Shown here: piece after piece, positions 36,029-42,174 of the stretch
Position numbering within the stretch: the stretch's first letter is position 1
Layout: each line of letters opens with the position of its first letter
NCBI RefSeq assembly: GCF_018141405.1
Contig: NZ_CP058648.1
Location: 1,565,001-1,629,000, forward strand
DNA length: 64,000 nucleotides
Reading direction: 5' to 3'
Origin: Serpentinicella alkaliphila
Lineage (GTDB): Bacteria > Bacillota > Clostridia > Peptostreptococcales > Natronincolaceae
Notes under the pieces: generated by a model
What the model saw: only the letters and a program-made list of their open reading frames with translations
What the model was told of the DNA's origin: nothing
Database searches by the model: none
Program-made: the position numbers and the translations under genes

Positions 36029-36124
36029 ACTTTTCTCCGAAATGGCAAACCATTGGAAACAACGGGACGCAAAGCTACAGGCCTAATCGATTAGTATTGC
36101 AGCTGAGCTACCGAAGGGAAAGGT
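36029..36124 (+). promoter_or_regulatory. c-di-GMP-I (GEMM-I) riboswitch, first aptamer of the adhesin leader
   Basis: Class I hallmarks in order: GGCAAACC, a GNRA-type GGAAAC loop, GGGACGCAAAGC, AGGCCTAA, then GAGCTACCGAA. P1 is ACTTTTCTC (36029-36037) with GGGAAAGGT (36116-36124). TTTTTATTAT follows P1 directly, as after the other two class I aptamers in this window. P2 has one A-C mismatch. It lies about 330 nt before the adhesin start, on the same strand and with no gene between. No intrinsic terminator with a compact stem is obvious, so its expression platform is unclear. Confidence 0.9.
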
Positions 36125-36178
36125 TTTTATTATAACTAATCAAATAATCTTTAAACTAGGGGGGTGGGCTAGTATCAG

Positions 36179-36231
36179 GTGACAGTATGGTGATTACATA
36201 TACACATTTCTTTTGTCGGACATACTATCAC
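36179..36231 (+). other. Large imperfect hairpin between the class I and class II aptamers
   Basis: GTGACAGTATG (36179-36189) pairs with CATACTATCAC (36221-36231), 10 of 11 positions, around a 31-nt loop. There is no T-run. It may be a spacer or part of the GEMM-I expression platform. Confidence 0.4.
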
Positions 36232-36260
36232 ACAAAGGATAATAGAATGATGTAGTTGTC

Positions 36261-36337
36261 AAAAAGGAAGCTATGAAACGTACTTTGTATTTGGGCACTT
36301 TAAGTACGGGGAGCGAGTAGTGCAACCGACCTTTCTT
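36261..36337 (+). promoter_or_regulatory. c-di-GMP-II riboswitch, aptamer 1
   Basis: Matches the class II aptamer: CTATGAA, TTGGGCACTT, a hairpin arm ending in AAGTACG, then GTAGTGCAACCGACC. GCACT in the loop can form the class II pseudoknot with AGTGC downstream. P1 is only 5 bp (AAAGG 36263-36267 with CCTTT 36330-36334). Its 3' arm CCTTTCTT can alternatively pair perfectly with the 5' P1 arm of aptamer 2. Confidence 0.92.
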
Positions 36338-36344
36338 GATTAGT

Positions 36345-36424
36345 AAGAAAGGGATGCTATGAAGTACACCTTTCACATGGGCACTTGAGGTTGTATGGAG
36401 CAAGTAGTGCAACCGACCTTTCTT
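36345..36424 (+). promoter_or_regulatory. c-di-GMP-II riboswitch, aptamer 2
   Basis: Second tandem class II aptamer: CTATGAAGTACACC, ATGGGCACTTGAGG, then AAGTAGTGCAACCGACC. P1 is a perfect 8 bp (AAGAAAGG 36345-36352 with CCTTTCTT 36417-36424). The 3' arm of this P1 can instead pair with AAAGAGAGG (36439-36447), which includes the start of the adhesin Shine-Dalgarno. Ligand binding should therefore free the ribosome site. Confidence 0.93.
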
Positions 36425-36457
36425 TAGACGAATTGTTTAAAGAGAGGAGAGAGATGT
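36417..36457 (+). promoter_or_regulatory. Shine-Dalgarno switch of the adhesin gene
   Basis: CCTTTCTTT (36417-36425) and AAAGAGAGG (36439-36447) are complementary over 9 positions with one G-T pair and a 13-nt loop. The second element overlaps the purine-rich ribosome site (36441-36453) before the ATG at 36458. This hairpin competes with P1 of aptamer 2. Confidence 0.75.
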
Positions 36458-38095
36458 ATGAGAAAGAATAAATCAATTATCAAATCTATGTTAGCAGTAA
36501 TTATGACTTTAATTCTAACATTTGGTAGTACACTAAGCGTATTGGCTGCTAGTCCAACTTTGATCATTAGAAAAAATTGGAGTTGGCAGGAAGGAACATT
36601 CAAAATAAATGGTGTACCACAGGAAGGAATATATGAAATGTTCTCTGGAGAAACTTCGCCAGGCAATTTTAATGCTCCTTTCGGTAAAACAGTAATTGGG
36701 ACAGTGTATATGCAAAATACTACAAGTCAACAGTTTGATTGGTCTTTAATCTCAGGACCCCCAATTTCTAGAATTTGGGTGAAGGGTGGACCTAACGCTC
36801 TAGAATATGATTATGGAAGTGGAGCAACTAGTGGGTTTGGGCTAGTAGCACCAGACAACAAAGATATAAGTCATGTTGTTTTCTTCTTTGGGCAAACACC
36901 GGTAGATGACGATGATGATGATTCTCCTGCAATTATTTTTGTAGAAAACTCGGAAGGGCAACTGGTATCCATCTACACTATTTCGGGCTTCAAGTTTGAA
37001 GAAATAACTGGTGAAACAAATAAACCTTTGGAGGATTGGAAAATCATACTCACAGGACCTGGAGAAATAAAACACGAAACTCAGACAAATGAAGACGGCA
37101 AATATCAATTCACTTTGAATAATGCTCCAACGGGAACTTACATTGTAACAGAAGAAATCCCTAGTGGATGGCAGAATATAACTGAATTATCTCAAACTAT
37201 TAATTTAGGATCTGGACTCTATACTATACCTTACGAAAAAGGAACACTACAGCTGGGGTTAGATCAAAATATGACAAGTATATTTACTGAAACATTTGTA
37301 GCTGAAGGTAGAATAGGAGATCTTGGTGGAAACGCAACCCATGAAATTAATATTCATACGCCAAATCAAGGCTCTGTTCAGTCACAAGGAAACTTTAGCT
37401 GGGCAAATGGTGGAGAAAAAGTACCTTTCGAATTAAGATACGATAATGGTCTAGTTAGTTTTACGGTAGGTAACGCAGGTACCTTGACCTACAGTACAGG
37501 CGAATCAGTTAAAGATATTGTCATACGGACAAGAGCCACGAAACCTGATTCTGGAATAAAAATCTCAGATATTGTATTAAACGGAGAAAGCATTTCTGAG
37601 ACATCTGTAGCTATTGGAAACGGAGTGGGTGTCGGAAATCTATGGATTAGAGGATATAATTTGGATAATGGATTTATATTAACTGGAAACTCCCAAATGT
37701 ACTGGGACGCAAACTCAATTCCGACTAATTCACAACTTGCATTCCAAATAAAAGTAGGAGAGGCAGAACGAGTAAATGAATCCTATCAAATTGATTTTGT
37801 TAATAAACGGCTACAAGTGGTTGATCCTCCGGTAGTTGATCCTCCGGTAGTTGATCCTCCGGTAGTTGATCCTCTTGATCCAATAATAGATTTATTAGAT
37901 GAAGAAATCCCATTAGCAATAGTAGACTTTGATATAGATGGTGATGACGAGGAAGAATTGATTCTTTTAGATGAAGAAATTCCTCTTGGAATAGTTACAT
38001 TACCAAAAACAGGGGAAATAAATCCATTAGAGTTTGTGATTTTCGGATTACTACTTGCAGTAGTTGGATTTAAATTAAGAAAAGAATCGATCTAA
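36458..38095 (+). CDS. Sortase-anchored surface adhesin with Cna-B domain (LPKTG)
   Basis: 545 aa. Signal peptide at 1-30 (cleavage around VLA-AS), an N-terminal beta-rich domain (about 32-155) resembling the ISHVVFFFG module of clostridial surface proteins, an acidic DDDDDDS linker, a SpaA/Cna-B domain (about 176-265: LEDWKIILTGPGE, NEDGKYQFTL, GTYIVTEEIPSGW), another beta domain (about 280-430), a VVDPP repeat, two copies of LDEEIPL flanking an acidic stretch, then the sorting signal LPKTG at 515-519 with a hydrophobic helix and RKESI tail. It would be covalently fixed to peptidoglycan. The sortase gene follows at 65 bp. The leader carries three c-di-GMP aptamers, so expression should follow c-di-GMP. 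The start ATG 36458 is 8 nt after GGAG; ATG 36454 is out of frame. Confidence 0.9.
   Translation: MRKNKSIIKSMLAVIMTLILTFGSTLSVLAASPTLIIRKNWSWQEGTFKINGVPQEGIYEMFSGETSPGNFNAPFGKTVIGTVYMQNTTSQQFDWSLISGPPISRIWVKGGPNALEYDYGSGATSGFGLVAPDNKDISHVVFFFGQTPVDDDDDDSPAIIFVENSEGQLVSIYTISGFKFEEITGETNKPLEDWKIILTGPGEIKHETQTNEDGKYQFTLNNAPTGTYIVTEEIPSGWQNITELSQTINLGSGLYTIPYEKGTLQLGLDQNMTSIFTETFVAEGRIGDLGGNATHEINIHTPNQGSVQSQGNFSWANGGEKVPFELRYDNGLVSFTVGNAGTLTYSTGESVKDIVIRTRATKPDSGIKISDIVLNGESISETSVAIGNGVGVGNLWIRGYNLDNGFILTGNSQMYWDANSIPTNSQLAFQIKVGEAERVNESYQIDFVNKRLQVVDPPVVDPPVVDPPVVDPLDPIIDLLDEEIPLAIVDFDIDGDDEEELILLDEEIPLGIVTLPKTGEINPLEFVIFGLLLAVVGFKLRKESI
37821..37873 (+). repeat. 15-bp tandem repeat coding VVDPP
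   Basis: TTGATCCTCCGGTAG is repeated three times without change (37821-37865) with a partial fourth copy. It encodes a proline-rich stalk just before the cell-wall anchor and is a likely site of length variation. Confidence 0.9.
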
Positions 38096-38160
38096 TTTAG
38101 TTATTTAATCAACTTCATAGAGGGGAGAAATACCCCTCTATTTTTATATGGGGGATCGTT

Positions 38161-38787
38161 ATGAAGAAAATGAGTTATATTTTTATTACTATAGGAATCT
38201 TAACAATGTTATATCCTTTTTTTAATAATTTCTACCAATCATATTGGCAACAGAATCTTCTAAATCAAGTAGATATTGCAGAGTCTGTAATAGAGGATTA
38301 TCAGTTGTTAAATGAATTTTTCTATGAAGAGTTAGATTATTTTGAAGAACAAGAAGTTGATACTATTGAAAGAATGGAAGAAGTTGTAAATAATAGTAGC
38401 AATTTGCTTGGAACTATAGAAATTGCTAAAATTAATCTTAGATTACCTATTTTACTTGGTACAAGCAGTAGTAATTTAAGAAAAGCTGCAGGTCATTTAA
38501 GTGGAACAAATTTTCCGGGAGAAATAGGTAATAGTGTCATTGCAGCTCACAGGGGACGTAAATACGGGGTGTTGTTTAATAGACTAGAGGAGTTAGAAGC
38601 AGGAGATAAGATTGTTATAACTACAAAAGGTGAAAAACATGAATACACAATATATCTAAAAAAATTTGTAGAACCTACAGATTTGTCTGTGCTTAATCGT
38701 AATAGCAAAGATAGAATATTGACACTAATTACATGCGACCCTATAAATAATCCAACACATCGAATAATTATTCATGCAAAAATGTAA
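38161..38787 (+). CDS. Sortase (class D-like)
   Basis: 208 aa. One N-terminal membrane helix (about 4-22), then a sortase fold: IGTIEIAKINLRLPILLG-type opening near residue 82, catalytic His in AAHRG, catalytic Cys in TLITC, and the Arg in THRIIIHAK. The order and the lack of a lid motif (DPW/F-G) suggest class D or E rather than pilin-polymerising class C, but the HRG and LFNRLEELEAGD stretch is also class C-like. It should anchor the LPKTG adhesin encoded immediately upstream. The 3' end of the gene is duplicated beyond the IS element that follows; this copy is complete. Confidence 0.9.
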   Translation: MKKMSYIFITIGILTMLYPFFNNFYQSYWQQNLLNQVDIAESVIEDYQLLNEFFYEELDYFEEQEVDTIERMEEVVNNSSNLLGTIEIAKINLRLPILLGTSSSNLRKAAGHLSGTNFPGEIGNSVIAAHRGRKYGVLFNRLEELEAGDKIVITTKGEKHEYTIYLKKFVEPTDLSVLNRNSKDRILTLITCDPINNPTHRIIIHAKM

Positions 38788-38863
38788 AAAGCAATGTAAA
38801 AAATTTAATTATATTGTAGAAAAATATTTGATTATTTTCAAAAATATATGGTATAATTATCAT
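38552..38863 (+). repeat. Left copy of 312-bp direct repeat flanking the IS element
   Basis: Bases 38552-38863 reappear at 40812-41123 with a single difference seen (A at 38722, T at 40982). The repeat covers the last 236 bases of the sortase gene and the intergenic promoter. Confidence 0.93.
38828..38857 (+). promoter_or_regulatory. Promoter (left copy), now reading into the IS element
   Basis: TTGATT (38828-38833), 18 bp, TATAAT (38852-38857). Identical to 41088-41117, which serves the transglutaminase-like gene. Confidence 0.6.
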
Positions 38864-38895
38864 TTATCCCATCTTTGACAGTTAATAAAGAAAAA

Positions 38896-38933
38896 AAGCT
38901 TGTAACCTGTTATAAATAGTAGGTTACAAGCTT
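38896..38933 (-). terminator. Terminator of the IS1634 transposase gene
   Basis: A 13-bp perfect stem, AAGCTTGTAACCT (38896-38908) with its complement at 38921-38933; on the minus strand it is followed by a run of seven Ts. Confidence 0.85.
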
Positions 38934-38964
38934 TATATATTTGTCCAAAAAGTGCGTAATTTTT

Positions 38965-40677
38965 TTATCTTTTCGTATCTTTAAAAATATTTTTCATATG
39001 TGTGTTTTTTATTATTTGATAATCCGTTCTGAAGCCAAAAGCCTCATGAAGTGCATCTGTAAAATCTGTGCGTGTGTAAGTTGGAATATAGCCATCGCCA
39101 AGGATTTCATAAAAATTCATACCCCTTAACTCTCGTATGATTTCAGTACAGGTGAACTTGTTATCTAAGTGTTTTTCAAGATATCTATAAAGCACCATTG
39201 CCAAGAAACAAGTTGTAAAGTGTGCTTCTATACGATCATCTCTTGTTAAGTACACTGGTCTTGCCTTAAATTCACTTTTCATAATTCTAAAGCATTCTTC
39301 AATCTCCCAACGTTTATGATTAACTTTAATAATTTCAGAAGCTTCATCTTCTAAATTTGTGCATACAGCATAAAAACCATCATATGCCTCTTCTTTTGAT
39401 ATAATATCTGAATCCAGTCGATAGAGGTCCTTTTCTGCCACCTCACCATCTGATGTAACGCTTGTTTTTCCTATAAATCTTTTGTAATCGTTCTGATTAC
39501 ACTTGTTGAGTTTTGATGGATTGTTTTCTATTACCTTAACAGCACGCTCAATTTGTTTATTTCGAATTTTTCTTTGATAGTCTCTATATTTAATTGAATA
39601 AGTTACAATTAGCTTTTGTTCCAAACCATTTTCTTTAATCCATCGCTCTTTATAAAAAGTAATATCTGCAAAATTGTCTTCTTCAATATCAGAGATATCG
39701 AAAACCTTACTACTACCACTTAAACTCCATCCTTCGCTAGAAAGTGCCCATTCTTTAAGATGTTTTTTAAGTTTTTTGATTGACTGAGTGGTTATAAAAG
39801 CACGTCCACCTTGATCATTAAATTTCCTATTGTCATTTGACGCTAGTCCAGCATCTGTGCATACGACAAACTTTGAGAGTTTGAAATCATTAAGTATCTT
39901 CTGTTCTAAAGGCTTTAAAGTGAGCTGTTCATTAGTATTACCTTTAGTAATGCTAAATGCTAGTGGAATACCATCCCCATCCATAAAAAGACCCATTTGT
40001 ACGATAGGATTAGGTTTGTGTTCCTTTGAATACCCATACTGTTTTAAGCCTTGCTCTTGCTCAATCTCAAAGAAGTAATTCGTACAGTCATAATAAAGAA
40101 TTCCTGAATTACGCTTAGAAAGTTTATAACTATTATTATAAAGCTCCGATTGAATATAATCAGTTTCCTTAGAAATAACTTCAAGTGCTCTATAAATATG
40201 TTGAATATCAAAATCAGGTTTTTCTAAAAATCTAGTAGATAGGTTATAGGTGGAAAGCTTAGAACCAGGAAAGATAATCCTACCATATAAAAGTCTAGAT
40301 AGTATGGAGTCAAGATTAAAAGTGAATTTATGGCGATTGGAAATCTCTTTACAGATTTTGTGAATTCCTAGATCATGATAAATCTTTTGAAGAAATAGAT
40401 AGCCTCCATTAAAAGACTGTTGCTTATCTTTACCAATAAGTTTTGTAGGCGAGTATTGAACCATGATTGTACTATTTTCTTCTTTTTCTTTTTTATTAAG
40501 TTCATCGATATATTTCTTAGCCCATTCAATAGGGTCTTCCCCGTTTAATTTGTTAAGAAGCTCATCATATGTACCTAGTTTTTCAACAATTTTAGTAGTA
40601 CGCTTATTTTTTTCAATTATATCCTTTATCACATAAAGTGAAGTAGCATTTTTAGATTTAGAAAGTGATAATCTCAT
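38965..40677 (-). CDS. IS1634-family transposase
   Basis: 570 aa, full length and uninterrupted. A DDE transposase of the IS4 superfamily: YYDCTNYFFEIE (first Asp), VVCTDAGLASNDNRKF (second Asp) and, near the C-terminus, HKRWEIEECFRIMKSEF (Glu, Y/W-2-R/E signature). GGGGGTG precedes the ATG at 40677 on the minus strand. As the gene is intact and the flanking repeats are almost identical, the insertion is probably recent. Confidence 0.93.
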   Translation of the reverse strand: MRLSLSKSKNATSLYVIKDIIEKNKRTTKIVEKLGTYDELLNKLNGEDPIEWAKKYIDELNKKEKEENSTIMVQYSPTKLIGKDKQQSFNGGYLFLQKIYHDLGIHKICKEISNRHKFTFNLDSILSRLLYGRIIFPGSKLSTYNLSTRFLEKPDFDIQHIYRALEVISKETDYIQSELYNNSYKLSKRNSGILYYDCTNYFFEIEQEQGLKQYGYSKEHKPNPIVQMGLFMDGDGIPLAFSITKGNTNEQLTLKPLEQKILNDFKLSKFVVCTDAGLASNDNRKFNDQGGRAFITTQSIKKLKKHLKEWALSSEGWSLSGSSKVFDISDIEEDNFADITFYKERWIKENGLEQKLIVTYSIKYRDYQRKIRNKQIERAVKVIENNPSKLNKCNQNDYKRFIGKTSVTSDGEVAEKDLYRLDSDIISKEEAYDGFYAVCTNLEDEASEIIKVNHKRWEIEECFRIMKSEFKARPVYLTRDDRIEAHFTTCFLAMVLYRYLEKHLDNKFTCTEIIRELRGMNFYEILGDGYIPTYTRTDFTDALHEAFGFRTDYQIIKNTHMKNIFKDTKR

Positions 40678-40811
40678 AATAACACCCCCAGTTATCTATA
40701 TTATAACACAATACGATAAAATACGAAAGAAATATTTGAGAAAATTTACAAAAAAATAAAGCCTTTTCAAAGCTTTAGCGATTTTTTTTATTATTCAACT
40801 GTCAAAGACCC

Positions 40812-41047
40812 GGGGACGTAAATACGGGGTGTTGTTTAATAGACTAGAGGAGTTAGAAGCAGGAGATAAGATTGTTATAACTACAAAAGGTGAAAAACAT
40901 GAATACACAATATATCTAAAAAAATTTGTAGAACCTACAGATTTGTCTGTGCTTAATCGTAATAGCAAAGATAGAATATTGTCACTAATTACATGCGACC
41001 CTATAAATAATCCAACACATCGAATAATTATTCATGCAAAAATGTAA
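40812..41047 (+). pseudogene. Duplicated 3' fragment of the sortase gene
   Basis: Encodes the last 78 residues of the sortase from GRKYGVLF onward, without the catalytic His and with no start signal, so it is inert. The Thr of the catalytic TLITC motif has become Ser (SLITC) through the one base difference in the repeat. Confidence 0.9.
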
Positions 41048-41087
41048 AAAGCAATGTAAAAAATTTAATTATATTGTAGAAAAATAT

Positions 41088-41117
41088 TTGATTATTTTCA
41101 AAAATATATGGTATAAT
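41088..41117 (+). promoter_or_regulatory. Promoter of the tandem riboswitch and transglutaminase-like gene
   Basis: TTGATT (41088-41093), 18 bp, TATAAT (41112-41117). The start site would be near 41124, about 24 nt before the first aptamer. This copy was recreated by the IS target duplication. Confidence 0.65.
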
Positions 41118-41147
41118 TATCATATATAAGAAAATAATACTAAGTTG

Positions 41148-41250
41148 AACTTGTCAACGACAATAGCAAACCATTCGAAAGGATGGGACGCAAAGCTATA
41201 GGGCCTAAAGCACATAGTGCAATGGTAGCCAAGCCACCGAACGGGAAGTT
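41148..41250 (+). promoter_or_regulatory. c-di-GMP-I riboswitch, first of tandem pair
   Basis: Class I hallmarks: AGCAAACC, TTCGAAAGGA loop, GGGACGCAAAGC, AGGGCCTAA, then GGTAGCCAAGCCACCGAA. P1 pairs AACTTGTC (41148-41155) with GGGAAGTT (41243-41250), one mismatch. A TTTTTGTTATT tract follows. Confidence 0.95.
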
Positions 41251-41277
41251 TTTGTTATTATAAAATAGAATATATTT

Positions 41278-41296
41278 GGTGAAAAAGCTTTTCACC
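41278..41296 (+). promoter_or_regulatory. Anti-P1 hairpin between the tandem class I aptamers
   Basis: GGTGAAAA (41278-41285) and TTTTCACC (41289-41296) form a perfect 8-bp stem with a 3-nt loop. The right arm is the same CTTTTC that pairs with the Shine-Dalgarno in P1 of the second aptamer, so the two structures exclude each other. Confidence 0.75.
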
Positions 41297-41390
41297 GATA
41301 AAGGCAAACCACTCGAAAGGGTGGGACGCAAAGCCATAGGGCCTAACGCATTTAATGCTAAGGCAGCCGTGTTACCGAAGGAGGAGTTTT
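41282..41390 (+). promoter_or_regulatory. c-di-GMP-I riboswitch, second of tandem pair, P1 contains the Shine-Dalgarno
   Basis: Class I hallmarks: GGCAAACC, CTCGAAAGGG loop, GGGACGCAAAGCC, AGGGCCTAA, GCAGCCGTGTTACCGAA. P1 pairs AAAAA-g-CTTTTC (41282-41293) with GAGGAG-TTTTT (41381-41390 and on). GGAGGAG at 41380-41386 is the ribosome site of the gene starting at 41395. Ligand-stabilised P1 should block translation. Confidence 0.92.
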
Positions 41391-41394
41391 TATT

Positions 41395-42174
41395 ATGAAA
41401 AAAAGTATATTTATTATCGCATTACTTTTTATGCTTTCAGCAAACAGTGTTTTGGGACAAGCTGTTATAAATATTAGTAACTTAGGAAATGGTATGCTAG
41501 TTGTAAATAGTAACAGTATAGATAATAAAGACGTACGTGTTTTGGTTGAAAAGGGACAAGCTCGTTATCAATATAACATAAAAGAAAAAGAAACAAGAAT
41601 ACCACTACAAATGGGAATTGGCTCATATCAAGTAAGTGTAGTAGAGAATGTTGGCGGAAATAGATTTAAAGTTATTTCAAAAGAAACAGTAAATGTAAAT
41701 TCAATAGATGAAACAAATTTATTTCTTAGTTCAATACAGATGGTTAACTGGGATCAATCAATGAAGGCAGTACAAAAAGCTCAAGAATTAACAAAAGGAC
41801 TAAGTAACGATGAAGCAAAAGTAAAAGAAATTTATAACTATATAATAAATAATTTGGTCTATGATTTCGATAAAGTAGCTACTTTAACTTCTAATTATTT
41901 ACCAAATATAAATAAAATCTATGACGAAAACAAAGGCATTTGTTATGATTATTCATCTTTATTTGCAGGAATGTTAAGAAGTGTAGGAGTACCTACAAAA
42001 CTAGTAATGGGTTATGCTCCAAATGTGAATGAATACCATGCATGGAATGAAGTATATATTAATGGTAAGTGGGTAACAATAGACACTACTACAGATGCAG
42101 TATATAGACAAAATAATAGAAAATATGAGATGGCAAAAGATAAAAGCTTATTTAATGTAATGAAAGAATACTAA
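41395..42174 (+). CDS. Secreted transglutaminase-like (cysteine protease fold) protein
   Basis: 259 aa. Signal peptide at 1-22 (cleavage near VLG-QA), a beta-rich region to about residue 105, then a transglutaminase-like domain: catalytic Cys in NKGICYDYSSLF, His in EYHAWNEVY and Asp in WVTIDTTTD, so the triad is complete. Members of the superfamily act as peptidases or cross-linking enzymes on extracellular proteins. No anchor or SLH domain is seen, so it is likely released. Expression is controlled by two tandem class I c-di-GMP aptamers, with the second covering the ribosome site. Its neighbour is the adhesin-sortase operon. The substrate is unknown; the adhesin is an obvious candidate, by analogy with c-di-GMP-controlled surface proteolysis in C. 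difficile. Confidence 0.88.
   Translation: MKKSIFIIALLFMLSANSVLGQAVINISNLGNGMLVVNSNSIDNKDVRVLVEKGQARYQYNIKEKETRIPLQMGIGSYQVSVVENVGGNRFKVISKETVNVNSIDETNLFLSSIQMVNWDQSMKAVQKAQELTKGLSNDEAKVKEIYNYIINNLVYDFDKVATLTSNYLPNINKIYDENKGICYDYSSLFAGMLRSVGVPTKLVMGYAPNVNEYHAWNEVYINGKWVTIDTTTDAVYRQNNRKYEMAKDKSLFNVMKEY

Follow-up and report, generated by a model that had tools for sequence, protein, structure and literature searches.

A gene cluster in Serpentinicella alkaliphila, of a kind that many Gram-positive bacteria share, probably acts as an attach-and-release module controlled by the second messenger cyclic di-GMP (c-di-GMP), in which an LPXTG surface protein is made when c-di-GMP is high and is shed by a secreted transglutaminase-fold enzyme, hereafter TG, when c-di-GMP is low. 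The cluster lies in a 64,000-nucleotide stretch of contig NZ_CP058648.1 (the window), part of a complete genome of 3.26 Mb in the family that also includes Natronincola peptidivorans and Anaerovirgula multivorans. The window holds the parts of the module; their linkage and the opposite-sign anatomy of the two leaders are conserved in relatives, and a doubled motif in the tails of LPXTG proteins is associated with TG across genomes. The initial annotation had named an LPKTG protein, a sortase and an enzyme with a Cys-His-Asp triad under c-di-GMP control, and Rfam and profile matches place every one of these elements where it had put them. It had left unmentioned the third, opposite-looking aptamer in the surface-protein leader, the insertion sequence between the sortase and TG, and the conserved linkage of these two genes.

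In the mechanism that we propose, high c-di-GMP would act on both leaders. A tandem c-di-GMP-II switch would expose the ribosome-binding site of the surface-protein gene, so that the LPKTG protein is made and anchored, while TG would be stopped twice: by termination at its first aptamer (P1 stem plus U-run) and by burial of its Shine-Dalgarno (SD) sequence in the P1 of its second aptamer. As c-di-GMP falls, synthesis of the surface protein would end and secreted TG would be produced. TG would then shed the surface protein by cutting its acidic stalk just outside the LPXTG anchor; the probable cut sites are the repeated [DE]EE[IV]P[LQ]G motifs. The ligand response, adhesive role, proteolysis and exact cut site in this scheme are what we infer from the observations below.

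All five aptamers in the window score above the Rfam gathering cut-offs (35 bits for RF01051 and 53.5 bits for RF01786). When the surface-protein leader is folded without ligand, the SD sequence, GAGAGG, is sequestered by a hairpin of 13 bp, with a probability of 0.00-0.01 of being unpaired. The 5' arm of this hairpin, CCUUUCUUUAGAC, starts with the P1 3' strand of c-di-GMP-II aptamer 2. Because the ligand-stabilized P1 and the SD hairpin are mutually exclusive, ligand should open translation of the surface protein. This hairpin arrangement is kept in 4 of 4 c-di-GMP-II leaders and recurs in Anaerovirgula, Geosporobacter and Alkaliphilus, and the structural prediction that the operon of surface protein and sortase is ON at high c-di-GMP is supported.

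The response of the surface protein may be less simple, since a c-di-GMP-I aptamer precedes the c-di-GMP-II pair. This aptamer has OFF-type anatomy, with a P1 followed by a U-run (36035-36125) as in TG aptamer 1, and if it terminated transcription at high ligand, the surface protein would be expressed only at intermediate c-di-GMP levels, a band-pass response. The same order, an OFF-type c-di-GMP-I aptamer and then ON-type c-di-GMP-II, occurs in four genomes (window 36035-36427; loci L062, 4340-4900; L097, 4915-5400; and L116, 4330-4640), and such a mixed-class leader could give band-pass behavior. However, the role of the 36035 aptamer and the position of the promoter are both uncertain, and most LPXTG leaders elsewhere lack a leading aptamer of this kind. 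We regard band-pass control as a real possibility, if a doubtful one.

The leader of TG appears to work in the opposite direction. In the ligand-free window leader, folding predicts that a hairpin formed by GGUGAAAA and UUUUCACC captures the P1 5' strand and that the TG SD stays open; with ligand, the P1 of aptamer 2 would bury the SD. Across TG loci, the last aptamer ends 8-34 nt ahead of the ATG in 58 of 62 cases. Five U residues occur within 26 nt after the first aptamer of a pair in 40/42 cases, as against 23/62 after last aptamers (p = 5e-10), and P1 strands pair better within their own locus than when swapped among loci (z = -8.0 and -5.2; 0/500 shuffles). With a U-run after the first aptamer and the SD in the P1 of the last, the TG pair looks like a two-stage OFF device, in which transcription would be terminated at aptamer 1 through P1 and the U-run and translation would be blocked at aptamer 2. 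We also considered the upstream anti-P1 hairpin as a general feature of such leaders and rejected it (mean z -0.64 in 105 aptamers, with the ligand-free SD open in only 7/60 loci), although in folding of the window TG leader the hairpin is nevertheless clear.

In relatives, the riboswitch before the LPXTG gene is not always of the c-di-GMP-II class. Anaerosolibacter, other Alkaliphilus and Paenibacillus have a single c-di-GMP-I aptamer in its place, the 3' strand of which (e.g. GACUGCCAUGA) doubles as the 5' arm of a strong terminator. An ON switch of this architecture, with aptamer and terminator excluding each other, has been described for Geobacter pilM (PMC9262584), and the c-di-GMP-I aptamer that precedes type IV pilus genes in the window genome has the same ON-type terminator. 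We assigned c-di-GMP-I aptamers to ON or OFF type by a fixed motif rule, and one (L127) by inspection. The OFF type accounts for 104 of the 112 aptamers preceding TG, whereas 7 of the 9 preceding LPXTG genes are ON-type (six by rule, L127 by inspection), the remaining two being ones placed before c-di-GMP-II pairs. At two loci from another family (L190 and L191), we saw no clear terminator at the c-di-GMP-I aptamer before the LPXTG gene and assigned no sign. Thus, the opposite sign is kept even though lineages differ in the class and mechanism of the riboswitch that controls the surface protein. The initial annotation had predicted opposite-sign control and had set a same-direction response against its own idea; at the sequence level the two sets of leaders differ in predicted sign, and both the mutually exclusive pairings predicted in each window leader and the same contrast in relatives argue for its prediction.

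The base before GCAAACC is A in TG aptamer 1 and G in the other c-di-GMP-I aptamers of the window. An A at this position is typical of relatives of these aptamers that sense cyclic GMP-AMP, and for aptamers with A or C there, TG aptamer 1 included, c-di-GMP is the presumed ligand. Several ON-type aptamers of LPXTG genes also have A or C rather than G (L066 6329, L077 7532, L079 7440, L081 6863, L090 8027 and L127 3824). The window genome as a whole has seven c-di-GMP-I and three c-di-GMP-II sites and 24 GGDEF domains; its other c-di-GMP-I aptamers (2675359, 3074674, 3051161 and 731688; L041-L044) lie before genes for a type IV pilus, a Tad-like pilus, a large protein that matches GGDEF, and a response regulator.

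We gathered TG homologues by similarity to TG only, so that linkage to other genes was not selected for. Conserved co-occurrence in related genomes, which the initial annotation had put forward as a check, is what we found: among 297 genomes of the order, at least 28 of the 43 with top TG matches have a class C-like sortase directly upstream of TG and no more than 6 kb away, as against about 0.0014 per gene expected by chance. At 57 of the 73 loci with enough flank, TG has a sortase or LPXTG gene in its neighborhood. A c-di-GMP-I aptamer lies within 600 bp of TG at 64 of 80 named loci, with two or more at 45 of the 80, and Rfam confirmed aptamers at 19/20 top TG loci. The linkage is kept in Natronincola, Anaerovirgula, Alkaliphilus, Geosporobacter and Paenibacillus, yet the gene order is variable, with TG last in clostridia but first in L197 and in some Paenibacillus. 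This variation argues for a functional tie between TG and the surface-protein genes. One related genome (G103) offers a contrast: it has a surface protein and sortase, but neither TG nor a c-di-GMP aptamer before the surface protein was detected. At another locus (L052, 7555-9491), two tandem TG genes, each with its own c-di-GMP-I aptamer, stand behind a single LPXTG protein and sortase.

The surface protein has the sorting motif, hydrophobic stretch and charged tail of LPXTG cell-wall proteins (TIGR01167, 20.3 bits against a cut-off of 15.9), and its anchor and domain matches suggest that it is an adhesin. Its sortase carries the general sortase domain and scores 145 bits with the class C model NF033745, under the curated cut-off of 160; it is one of only two intact sortases in the genome. 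Directly outside the anchor, the tails of TG-linked LPXTG proteins carry a short acidic motif, often repeated (three copies in Anaerovirgula, five tandem copies of VEIPDEEIPQGKP in L197), which is rare in LPXTG proteins of TG-less genomes by comparison (p = 1e-5). NCBIfam describes such a doubled motif before LPXTG in its model NF033073 (LPXTG_double), to which it assigns no role. Of the genomes that match NF033073 at E <= 1e-5, 24/25 carry a strong TG, against 82/272 of the remaining genomes, and at the genus level, with matches at E <= 1e-4, the figures are 24/24 and 36/111; these counts take no account of relatedness beyond genus, a point against our reading. The presence of any class C sortase was rejected as a predictor of TG (11/44). 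The window surface protein itself has no NF033073 match despite its doubled motif, and the only match in the genome is to another protein at 3202108. In a further family, the only genome with a strong TG (G235) has a protein with a repeat tail 0.4 kb away, together with tandem aptamers.

The window genome also encodes a second LPXTG-type protein, at 3202102 (L145, L177), with an IPKTS motif in an open frame of 1510 aa and its own sortase nearby. It carries the doubled motif IDDEGIPLG...VDDNGIPLGG and is a possible second substrate of TG, by analogy with CD3246 and the Clostridioides difficile protease PPEP-1.

The N-terminus of TG resembles a signal peptide, its N-terminal part is rich in beta structure, and its core matches PF01841; the triad C183 (41941), H215 (42037) and D230 (42082) is invariant in 48 relatives. 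The closest structures to its AlphaFold model (predicted local distance difference test, pLDDT, 89) are Streptococcus pyogenes TglA (9crn, Z 14.2) and 3isr, which is a putative cysteine protease (Z 14.1), followed by LapG of Pseudomonas (Z 11.3). TG is most likely a LapG-like cysteine protease that would shed the surface protein as c-di-GMP falls, both substrate and cleavage being presumed. Proteolysis is favored because of the predicted expression at low c-di-GMP, the precedent of LapG and the presence of Leu, not Gln, in most motif copies. Among release, trimming and cross-linking of the adhesin, the activities suggested initially, proteolytic release fits TG best. Homologues of about 480-520 aa (L063, L072, L080, L087 and L128) have a long N-terminal extension, which gave no Pfam match, and mostly have no c-di-GMP-I aptamer nearby.

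Several points weigh against a releasing protease in a riboswitch-controlled module. First, the fold of the TG model is no closer to LapG than to true transglutaminases (TG3 and factor XIII, Z ~11), and fold alone cannot separate a protease from a cross-linker; moreover, none of 48 TG family members matches PF06035, the LapG/BTLCP family, at E 0.01. On a rival reading, TG is a genuine transglutaminase or a deamidase and would not cut the surface protein or matrix but cross-link or modify it, and some motif copies do contain Gln (IPQG, in L197). However, TG is predicted to be made only at low c-di-GMP, when cells leave surfaces, and Leu prevails over Gln in the motif, so we consider a cross-linker improbable. 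Second, at some loci neither an LPXTG gene nor a sortase lies near TG, and the fold also resembles the pseudomurein endoisopeptidases PeiP and PeiW (Z 10.4-10.6). This would suit a co-regulated exoenzyme directed at a different target (matrix, peptidoglycan or the isopeptide bond of the anchor), with the linkage reflecting a shared dispersal program; we think such an enzyme quite unlikely, given that the linkage recurs in several gene orders and that TG co-occurs at the genome level with doubled-motif LPXTG proteins, including the isolated case in another family (G235/L197). Third, the acidic motif beside LPXTG could instead serve the sortase. Finally, the leaders themselves do not fit throughout: the TG SD of relatives is mostly predicted to be paired even without ligand (median unpaired probability 0.28), which makes the open SD of the window atypical, and the surface-protein leader is headed by a c-di-GMP-I aptamer that looks OFF-type.

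An insertion sequence of the IS1634 family lies between the sortase and TG, identified by its transposase profile and a long target duplication (Table 1). The 312-bp direct repeats at its ends differ by one mismatch (38722), and IS1634 and IS1549 are reported to generate target repeats of 8-514 bp (PMC2266710). The segment 40812-41047 is a truncated copy of the sortase gene, and the apparent second sortase is a remnant. Since the sortase 3' end and the promoter-like sequence before TG both lie inside the repeat, the two transcription units stay whole; we rejected disruption of the cluster by the element, as the duplication preserves the sortase and the promoter and leader of TG.

Table 1. Features of the gene cluster, in window coordinates.
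Feature	Position	Strand	Details
c-di-GMP-I aptamer, first in surface-protein leader	36035..36116	+	GGC type 61.6 bits; RF01051 69.1 bits
c-di-GMP-II aptamer 1	36258..36340	+	RF01786, 76.7 bits
c-di-GMP-II aptamer 2	36343..36427	+	RF01786, 70.9 bits
SD-sequestering hairpin (36417-36447) plus SD	36417..36449	+	Predicted translational ON switch; folding, 4 loci
LPXTG surface protein (LPKTG), 545 aa, probable adhesin	36458..38095	+	TIGR01167, NF041928 choice_anch_W, weak SpaA
Stalk with candidate cleavage region	37898..38014	+	DEEIPLA 37898-37918, DEEIPLG 37970-37990, LPKTG 38000-38014
Sortase, class C-like, TLITC motif	38161..38787	+	PF04203, 117.8 bits
Left copy of 312-bp target-site duplication	38552..38863	.	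One mismatch to right copy
IS1634-family insertion sequence	38864..40811	-	Transposase 38965-40677, NF033559 383.8 bits
Right copy of duplication	40812..41123	.	Truncated sortase 3' end and promoter-like TTGATT...TATAAT (41088-41117) before TG
c-di-GMP-I aptamer 1 of TG	41155..41241	+	RF01051, 74.4 bits; P1 then U-run
Anti-P1 hairpin	41278..41296	+	Predicted by folding to free SD without ligand
c-di-GMP-I aptamer 2 of TG	41293..41379	+	RF01051, 79.2 bits
P1 3' strand holding TG SD (GGAGG)	41380..41391	+	Predicted translational OFF switch
TG, secreted transglutaminase-fold enzyme, 259 aa	41395..42174	+	PF01841, 85.5 bits (cut-off 23)

In C. difficile it is established that riboswitches control an anchored surface protein with one sign and the protease that releases it with the other (PMC4591827, PMC11477304). 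There, the LPXTG-type proteins CD2831 and CD3246 are under c-di-GMP-II ON control and PPEP-1 (ZmpI, CD2830) is under c-di-GMP-I OFF control; the predicted logic of the S. alkaliphila cluster is the same, as are the adjacent genes and the repeated sites beside the anchor, with the releasing role presumed for TG. The initial annotation had drawn this parallel with the proviso that the enzyme type differs, and both parts stand: PPEP-1 is a zinc metalloprotease that cuts Pro-Pro sites, whereas TG is a PF01841 enzyme that has a Cys-His-Asp triad and lacks the HEXXH sequence. The S. alkaliphila cluster further differs from C. difficile in having the sortase inside the cluster, tandem aptamers and what appears to be largely translational control. 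In enzyme type, TG is nearer to Pseudomonas LapG, a transglutaminase-like Cys-His-Asp protease of related fold that releases an adhesin, LapA, at low c-di-GMP (PMC3032545). However, LapG, a PF06035 protein, resides in the periplasm and is retained by the receptor LapD, whereas TG is predicted to be secreted and riboswitch-controlled and to act on a sortase-anchored adhesin.

One half of the arrangement has been recorded before, as tandem c-di-GMP-I riboswitches before COG1305 (yebA) are tabulated as enriched in Bacillota (PMC12452182); that study mentions transglutaminase once and does not mention sortase, adhesin or opposite control. We found no published report linking an adhesin to the tandem c-di-GMP-I-COG1305 arrangement, and literature searches returned nothing on a transglutaminase with a c-di-GMP riboswitch and sortase, on Paenibacillus LPXTG proteins under a c-di-GMP riboswitch or on S. 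pyogenes TglA. The combination of TG with a conserved sortase, surface protein, tail motif and leader anatomy was likewise not found in the literature searched. A bolder proposal is that such release is widespread among Gram-positive bacteria: a LapG-fold protease, turned OFF in two stages by its c-di-GMP-I leader, would cut LPXTG proteins at an array of repeated acidic [DE]EE[IV]P[LQ]G sites, with a band-pass surface-protein leader (c-di-GMP-I OFF plus c-di-GMP-II ON) added in the window lineage; taken as a whole, we hold this proposal only tentatively and think it rather unlikely.

If the module works as we propose, the logic of cutting off an adhesin when c-di-GMP is low would have been built at least three times: by LapD and LapG in Pseudomonas, by PPEP-1 in C. 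difficile, and by a riboswitch-controlled transglutaminase-fold enzyme that many Bacillota possess, Paenibacillus among them. The exoproteins called "transglutaminase-like", which form a large family, would gain a function and a concrete candidate site, and the doubled motif before LPXTG, which stands in the database without a role, may owe its presence to such cleavage. The organisms concerned would also offer non-pathogen models for biofilm release.
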